Source of the DNA: Treponema sp.
GTDB lineage: Bacteria > Spirochaetota > Spirochaetia > Treponematales > Treponemataceae
Length of the DNA: 64,000 nt
Direction of reading: 5' to 3'
Assembly: GCA_016286535.1 (NCBI GenBank)
Contig: JAEESZ010000002.1
Coordinates: 1-64,000 of the forward strand
The first letter of the stretch is position 1. The number at the start of each line of letters is the position of its first letter. Shown here in pieces: positions 129 through 25,040 of this stretch. The translations under genes and the position numbers were made by a program. The notes beneath the pieces are model-generated. The model was not told the origin of the DNA. It did no database searches and saw only the letters and a list, made by a program, of their open reading frames with translations.

Positions 129-202
129 GGGCAGTTAGCTCAGCTGGTACGAGCGTCTGGTTTACACCCAGAATGTCGGGAGTTCGATCCTCTCACTGCC
201 CA
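129..202 (+). tRNA. tRNA-Val(TAC), copy 1
   Basis: Cloverleaf: acceptor GGGCAGT/ACTGCCC, anticodon stem TCTGG-TTTACAC-CCAGA (anticodon TAC), T-arm GGGAG-TTCGATC-CTCTC; CCA not encoded. Confidence 0.95.
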
Positions 203-206
203 CTCA

Positions 207-239
207 AAAGACTTGATGATAAATCAAGTCTTTTTTTTT
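207..239 (+). terminator. Rho-independent terminator after tRNA-Val copy 1
   Basis: AAAAGACTTGAT..ATCAAGTC followed by T9. Confidence 0.85.
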
Positions 240-262: not shown

Positions 263-376
263 GGATCGAACCGGCTCGATAAATCTCGCCTCAGCCGATT
301 ATGAGGAAAATCCTAAAATGGCCCGCCAGGGCAGCCCATTTTTTAACGGATTTCCGATTATCGGCAAGTTCGATCC
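263..376. repeat. Imperfect inverted-repeat element with T-arm-like ends, copy 1
   Basis: GGATCGAAC at the left end and GTTCGATCC at the right end; internal matches CGATAA, GGAAAATCC/GGATTTCC, AAAATGG/CCATTTT in order. Confidence 0.75.
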
Positions 377-391
377 TCTCACTGCCCACTC

Positions 392-424
392 AAAGACACC
401 TCAATATGGGGTGTCTTTTTTTTT
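392..424 (+). terminator. Rho-independent terminator after the tRNA-like tail, copy 1
   Basis: AAAGACACCTC-aatat-GGGGTGTCTTTTTTTTT. Confidence 0.8.
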
Positions 425-24535: not shown

Positions 24536-24564
24536 TTGACACAAATTGGTATTTTTGGTATAAA
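24536..24564 (+). promoter_or_regulatory. Putative sigma-70 promoter of tRNA-Val copy 2
   Basis: TTGACA (24536-24541), 17-bp spacer, TATAAA (24559-24564), 13 nt before the tRNA. Confidence 0.75.
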
Positions 24565-24577
24565 TTAATCATTGATT

Positions 24578-24651
24578 GGGCAGTTAGCTCAGCTGGTACG
24601 AGCGTCTGGTTTACACCCAGAATGTCGGGAGTTCGATCCTCTCACTGCCCA
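24578..24651 (+). tRNA. tRNA-Val(TAC), copy 2
   Basis: Identical 74 nt to 129..202. Confidence 0.95.
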
Positions 24652-24655
24652 CTTA

Positions 24656-24687
24656 AAAGACTTGATGATAAATCAAGTCTTTTTTTT
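24656..24687 (+). terminator. Rho-independent terminator after tRNA-Val copy 2
   Basis: AAAGACTTGAT..ATCAAGTC followed by T8; same hairpin as copy 1. Confidence 0.85.
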
Positions 24688-24710
24688 GTTTAAAGCAAAA
24701 TGTATGTTGT

Positions 24711-24824
24711 GGATCGAACCGGCTCGATAAATCTCGCCTCAGCCGATTATGAGGAAAATCCTAAAATGGCCCGCCTGGGCAGCCCATTTTTTAACGGATT
24801 TCCGATTATCGGCAAGTTCGATCC
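24711..24824. repeat. Imperfect inverted-repeat element with T-arm-like ends, copy 2
   Basis: 114-nt block matching 263..376 with one difference seen (CGCCAGGGC vs CGCCTGGGC). Confidence 0.78.
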
Positions 24825-24840
24825 TCTCACTGCCCACTTT

Positions 24841-24872
24841 AAGACACCTTAAATACGAGGTGTCTTTTTTTT
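24841..24872 (+). terminator. Rho-independent terminator after the tRNA-like tail, copy 2
   Basis: AAGACACCTT-AAATAC-GAGGTGTCTTTTTTTT. Confidence 0.8.
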
Positions 24873-24894
24873 GCTTTAAAACTTTTTCAATTCT

Positions 24895-25026
24895 CGAACT
24901 CCCGACATTCTCTTTAAGTTCAGTCGCTTCGCTCCTTTATTCTGGAAAATTAAATAAAGGTCGGCGATACTCGCATAGACTCGTACCGAGCCATTTTTGT
25001 TGGAAAATCCTAAAATGGCCCGCCAA
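24895..25026 (-). repeat. Rearranged inverted tRNA-Val/repeat fragment
   Basis: TCGAACTCCCGACATTCT is the reverse complement of tRNA-Val AGAATGTCGGGAGTTCGA; GACTCGTACCGAGC resembles the reverse complement of its D-arm; GGAAAATCCTAAAATGGCCCGCC (25002-25024) also occurs at 305-327 and 24753-24775. Confidence 0.65.
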
Positions 25027-25040
25027 GGTTTTTAAATAAA

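Follow-up and report, generated by a model that had tools for sequence, protein, structure and literature searches.

A short hairpin repeat, here termed E, which is carried by two near-identical tRNA-Val cassettes of a Treponema genome, is likely to be a miniature insertion element, non-autonomous and hairpin-forming, that belongs to a group of gut and rumen Treponema, T. bryantii included, and comes with a long and imprecise target duplication. Both cassettes are situated in the window, which is the whole stretch of 64,000 nucleotides analysed (contig JAEESZ010000002.1 of assembly GCA_016286535.1). The contig (C13, 296,847 bp) begins where the window begins; consequently, copy 1 of the cassette lies close to the contig end, at the 5S end of an rRNA operon. 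E is a hairpin with a core of ~86 bp (plus ~12-15 bp) within the non-coding part of the cassette.

All features given here are on the forward strand. Copy 1 is located downstream of a 5S rRNA (12-122), as first annotated, and consists of a complete tRNA-Val(TAC) at 129..203 (ARAGORN and Rfam), terminator 1 at 206..239 (fold z -4.9), an arm with the sequence GGATCGAAC at 263..271, the E core at 280..365 (full E about 272-366; covariance model 89.2 bits, E-value 1.9e-20), a duplicated tRNA-Val 3' end at 367..394 and terminator 2 at 392..424. The duplicated 3' end is a second copy of 181-208, identical at 28/28 positions. Copy 2 comprises a complete tRNA-Val(TAC) at 24578..24652 (ARAGORN), terminator 1 at 24655..24687, the antisense arm GGATCGAAC at 24711..24719 (fold), the E core at 24728..24813 (covariance model 89 bits, E-value 2.0e-20), the duplicated tRNA-Val 3' end at 24815..24842 (a 28-nt direct repeat with 96% identity) and terminator 2 at 24841..24872. 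All four terminators, two per copy as had been claimed, were found by the terminator scan. The TTGACA-17-TATAAA promoter described before copy 2 was read directly by eye as a promoter-like site at 24536..24564 (boxes at 24536-24541 and 24559-24564) and is absent from the promoter scan list. A DNA search located a third, decayed E directly 3' of copy 2 (24894..25028), composed of an 18-nt perfect antisense piece of tRNA-Val at 24894-24911 and, at 25002-25028, E's left half, with neither right half nor tail.

The initial annotation had reported a near-identical block of about 295 bp. The block is real at both loci but measures ~261 bp, since the match weakens inside terminator 2: over the segment that starts with the tRNA and closes with the second tail, the copies are identical at 258 of 261 aligned columns, and they diverge thereafter. 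By segment, identity was 75/75 in the tRNA-Val, 35/37 in terminator 1, 38/38 in the spacer, 86/87 in the hairpin core, 24/24 in the tRNA tail and 29/37 in terminator 2. The flanks are unrelated, as stated at the outset, with 21/60 matches in the 60 bp upstream of the tRNA and 17/46 beyond terminator 2. Blocks that are 98-99% identical between unrelated flanks are what a one-off segmental duplication in this genome would leave behind. Orthologous tRNA-Val genes of other species nevertheless bear their own, different cassettes, making such an origin very improbable; a single recent copying of the block is refuted as the full explanation, and the likeness of the two window copies may still be explicable in this way. 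The initial annotation had held that two copies only, lacking from all related genomes, would indicate such a one-off event. The covariance model instead detected E in 27 of 59 congeneric genomes, at up to 58 copies per genome.

Compared tail to tail, tRNA-Val cassette pairs within one genome share 98% identity in this genome, 82% in G015 and 84% in G080, and nearly all between-genome pairs share about 55-78%, with one close species pair at 88%. This within-genome likeness, together with the differing second terminators, suggests that sequence has been copied repeatedly from one tRNA paralogue to another, and we infer from these alignments that the near-identity of the cassettes would best be explained by gene conversion, or by recopying from one tRNA-Val gene to the other. 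Since the cassette is bordered by tRNA-Val sequence, 75 bp of it to the left and 24 bp to the right, homologous recombination could copy it from one tRNA-Val gene to another, which would account for a near-identical pair 24.4 kb apart with identity fading in terminator 2. Terminators 1 and 2 differ within the cassettes of this window, so later recombination must be assumed here; because the GACAC-type terminators of the E-bearing tRNA-Val of G003 resemble terminator 2 of the window, it was probably terminator 1 that arrived with the copied cassette. Among the interpretations originally offered, mobility thus applies to hairpin E with its genus-wide dispersal, and gene conversion to the near-identity of the cassette, each for a different part of the block.

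The covariance model of E was built from an alignment of 29 cores and detects E 29 times in this genome. Searching at the DNA level with 204-424 retrieved more partial relatives in the same genome and many in related genomes. The initial annotation had proposed asking whether the copies always follow a tRNA; most E copies do not lie beside one. Many congeners have no E at all, several few-contig assemblies among them. When an exact pattern of E was scanned against 84,980 species, the matches listed were all Treponema or spirochaete MAG contigs, with T. bryantii and T. porcinum among them. No match to E was obtained in viral contigs or in phage and plasmid collections, no Rfam family matched it, and nothing relevant was found in the literature on Treponema repeats. 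A search for E halves flanking a longer autonomous element yielded 8 right halves, and no obvious mover accompanied any of them.

Region 262-380 folds as a single hairpin (-43.4 kcal/mol, z -3.8), in the outer stem of which GGATCGAAC pairs with GTTCGATCC of the duplicated tail, the arm being complementary to the tail's start. Across 100 distinct copies of E, in an alignment that was fitted to the structure, 99.2% of cells were paired and 175 cells had changes on both sides against 2 with a change on one side; 0 of 500 shuffles reached either the paired percentage or the covariation score of E. An independent MAFFT alignment agrees, showing double changes in 8 of 14 pairs. G-U pairs are almost absent from the arms. 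RNA under selection normally passes through G-U intermediates, and the near-absence of such pairs points to a hairpin that matters, or is repaired, as DNA. This covariation, almost devoid of G-U, suggests that E forms a DNA hairpin.

The duplication at the right edge of E was assessed by comparing the 60 bases 3' of E with its own left flank at 139 non-redundant loci, with the 99th percentile of between-locus scores as cut-off. The right flank matched its own left flank above this value at 35 of 139 loci, against 1.4 expected, and in 32 of these 35 the second copy begins 0-2 bases from the edge of E; 10 of the 35 sit in tandem arrays. Among the stretches so copied are tails of tRNAs (Val, Leu(CAA), Leu(TAA), Pro, Thr and Met, and also part of a Gln-Glu tRNA pair) as well as 3' ends of protein genes, and at L248, L234 and L197 they comprise tail plus terminator. 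Terminators on both sides of E are recognisably alike in G034, G003, G019 and G080. Empty tRNA-Val sites with one terminator and no E occur in G003 (C3), G024, G004, G065, G006 and others, and orthologous protein-gene sites lacking E were found in G003, G006, G010 and G004. The simplest reading of these flanks and empty sites would be insertion with a long, imprecise target duplication. The second tRNA 3' tail noted earlier, present as a 28-nt repeat in both copies, is thus probably not what remains of a separate tRNA gene; in all likelihood it is the distal copy of the long duplication, resembling that of a target site, which comes with E. The expectation of duplications flanking every E was rejected, as about three quarters of the loci have no recognisable duplication, which limits the claim: many copies are old or arrived by another route. 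No closely related genome pair was found with a single E present and absent and the duplication still perfect, so the term target-site duplication is taken from the flanks.

Two observations were made at individual loci. In G025 (contig C1; L070, 830-1632), E and the 3' end of a protein gene form a fivefold tandem array with a period of 152 bp. At L065, L084, L089, L161 and L042 (tRNA-Pro, Leu, Val and gapA), the sequence immediately left of E contains an antisense copy of the beginning of the duplicated tail. Each of these copies matches its own locus, as though the palindrome had grown into host sequence.

The order tail, E, tail could also have arisen if a tRNA-Val gene had first been duplicated in tandem and E had then taken the place of the second gene's 5' half, leaving over the tail and terminator 2. 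Two nearby tRNA-Val matches do occur in G016:C237, G018:C13, G062:C52 and G006:C17, and terminators 1 and 2 are similar in several species. The same order recurs, however, at protein genes and at many tRNAs besides tRNA-Val and would demand a tandem gene every time; moreover, the second copy starts nearly always at the exact edge of E, and many E-free tRNA-Val genes are single, so we hold a tandem origin to be unlikely. The repetition of a tRNA 3' end on either side of an insert is likewise reminiscent of attL and attR, with the tail as attR of a decayed tyrosine-integrase element that targeted the tRNA. This origin is extremely improbable: the insert is about 160 bp in all species and leaves no room for an integrase gene, the junctions vary (within tRNA-Val the repeat starts at AGTTCG or TGTCGGG), the repeat runs on through the terminator, the same E occurs at protein genes, and E has no viral, phage or plasmid copy. 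A tRNA-targeting integrase element was also rejected among known systems, as neither a constant att core nor an integrase gene was found at these variable junctions.

Insertion with target duplication, the preferred reading, has a further aspect at protein genes, where an ORF on the opposite strand has its 3' end towards the right edge of E. With mechanical, uncurated ORFs, the end of the stop codon fell at an offset of -1 to +1 from the edge of E in 24 of 62 loci (ORFs of at least 60 aa) and in 16 of 81 loci of a second, partly overlapping set (ORFs of at least 100 aa); in 12 more loci of the latter set it fell at +6, the stop codon being supplied by E. Such placement would suit an element that is chiefly a functional 3' hairpin, an mRNA stabiliser or terminator selected after stop codons, with its spread being secondary, and the presence in G003 of a different hairpin repeat after the same stop codon fits as well. 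At tRNA loci, however, an intact terminator precedes E and co-transcription with the tRNA is improbable, many copies lie between co-directional genes, and the paired changes without G-U point to DNA rather than RNA; a primarily functional role is therefore possible, though we doubt it. The repeat of G003 (L316 and L319), GTCATGCTGAACTTGTTTCAGCATC...GATCCCGAAACAAGTTCGGGATGACG, occupies exactly the position that E has in T. bryantii XBD1002 and looks like the CGTC-type REPs. The finding of an unrelated hairpin at this post-stop position hints that the site, and not only the element, matters.

For an inserted E, the following course is proposed. In DNA-hairpin form, E would insert where transcription units end, and insertion would bring an imprecise, long target duplication of about 20 to 60 bp or more; the tRNA would stay whole, with a spare tail and terminator ending up beyond E. 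A more specific scheme, in which a DNA hairpin aimed at 3' ends (stop codons, terminators and tRNA T-arms), possibly by a transcription- or replication-coupled process, recopies the gene end and rewrites its own arms to match, as the antisense tail copies beside E at tRNA-Val, Pro, Leu and gapA would suggest, without a recognisable transposase or reverse transcriptase, is put forward as speculation that we think is probably wrong in at least some part.

Among known repeats, E appears closest to the YPAL miniature insertions, a likeness in properties. De Gregorio 2006 reportedly placed YPAL insertions shortly after stop codons and at terminators. Like YPAL, E is multi-copy, non-coding, hairpin-forming and intergenic, all of these traits being found in E, and shares with it variable-length target duplications (the 35 of 139 loci above) and filled and empty sites in relatives. 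In Yersinia, YPAL/RU-2 is a small repeat without TA ends, with variable duplications of 3-26 bp at targets that adjoin or span dyad symmetry, and with empty and filled sites among relatives (PMC2229807). The E core is about 86-100 bp compared to 168 bp for YPAL, and its duplications of about 20 to 60 bp or more exceed the 3-26 bp of the latter (PMC2229807). Unlike YPAL, the targets of E include tRNA genes, element and gene end are amplified in tandem, the sequence context is different, and the hosts are spirochaetes.

The CGTC- and GTAG-tagged REP palindromes associated with RAYT are, like E, dispersed and intergenic, and the CGTC type has been reported in Spirochaetes (PMC3733652). E is 2-4 times longer, no CGTC or GTAG tag was noticed in it, and most E-rich genomes have no Y1 transposase gene. 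Correia/NEMIS, ERIC and RUP have terminal inverted repeats and TA target duplications (PMC2229807); these MITEs resemble E in being non-coding, intergenic, 100-200 bp long and giving hairpin transcripts. Tested as a classical MITE, E showed no recognisable terminal repeats (its ends are TCGGC... and ...GGC) and no fixed short duplication. Integron attC sites are also imperfect DNA hairpins just 3' of stop codons, and were rejected because the RYYYAAC / GTTRRRY box pair was found in 0 of 62 E loci.

Searches for a mover gave no match to the Y1 transposase (RAYT-type) family in this genome (G000), G003, G004, G015, G024 or G071. There was likewise no match to RVT_1 in G000, G003, G004, G015 or G071, a test of target-primed reverse transcription that bears on a resident reverse transcriptase and not on a past or unrelated one. 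Integron integrase (TIGR02249) scored above its threshold in 20 of 59 congeneric genomes, several more having fragments of it, and did not do so in G000 or in the E-rich G003, G004 and G015. Y1 transposase, reverse transcriptase and integron integrase were all rejected as mover, as their presence did not track E.

Lineage-wide hairpin repeats without a known mover are an old puzzle of bacterial genomics, for which the E family offers a precisely placed right edge, duplications that can still be seen, a preference for gene ends and E-rich and E-free species in one genus, so that the search for a mover becomes a comparison of gene content. Additionally, a repeat with a tRNA-tail duplication could pass between copies of a tRNA gene and leave the tRNA unharmed. 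As a minor observation on the surroundings of E, GTCATTGCGAG...-type repeats adjoin it in the left flank of one T. bryantii XBD1002 locus (L125), and the fetched loci together contain 35 motifs of this kind.
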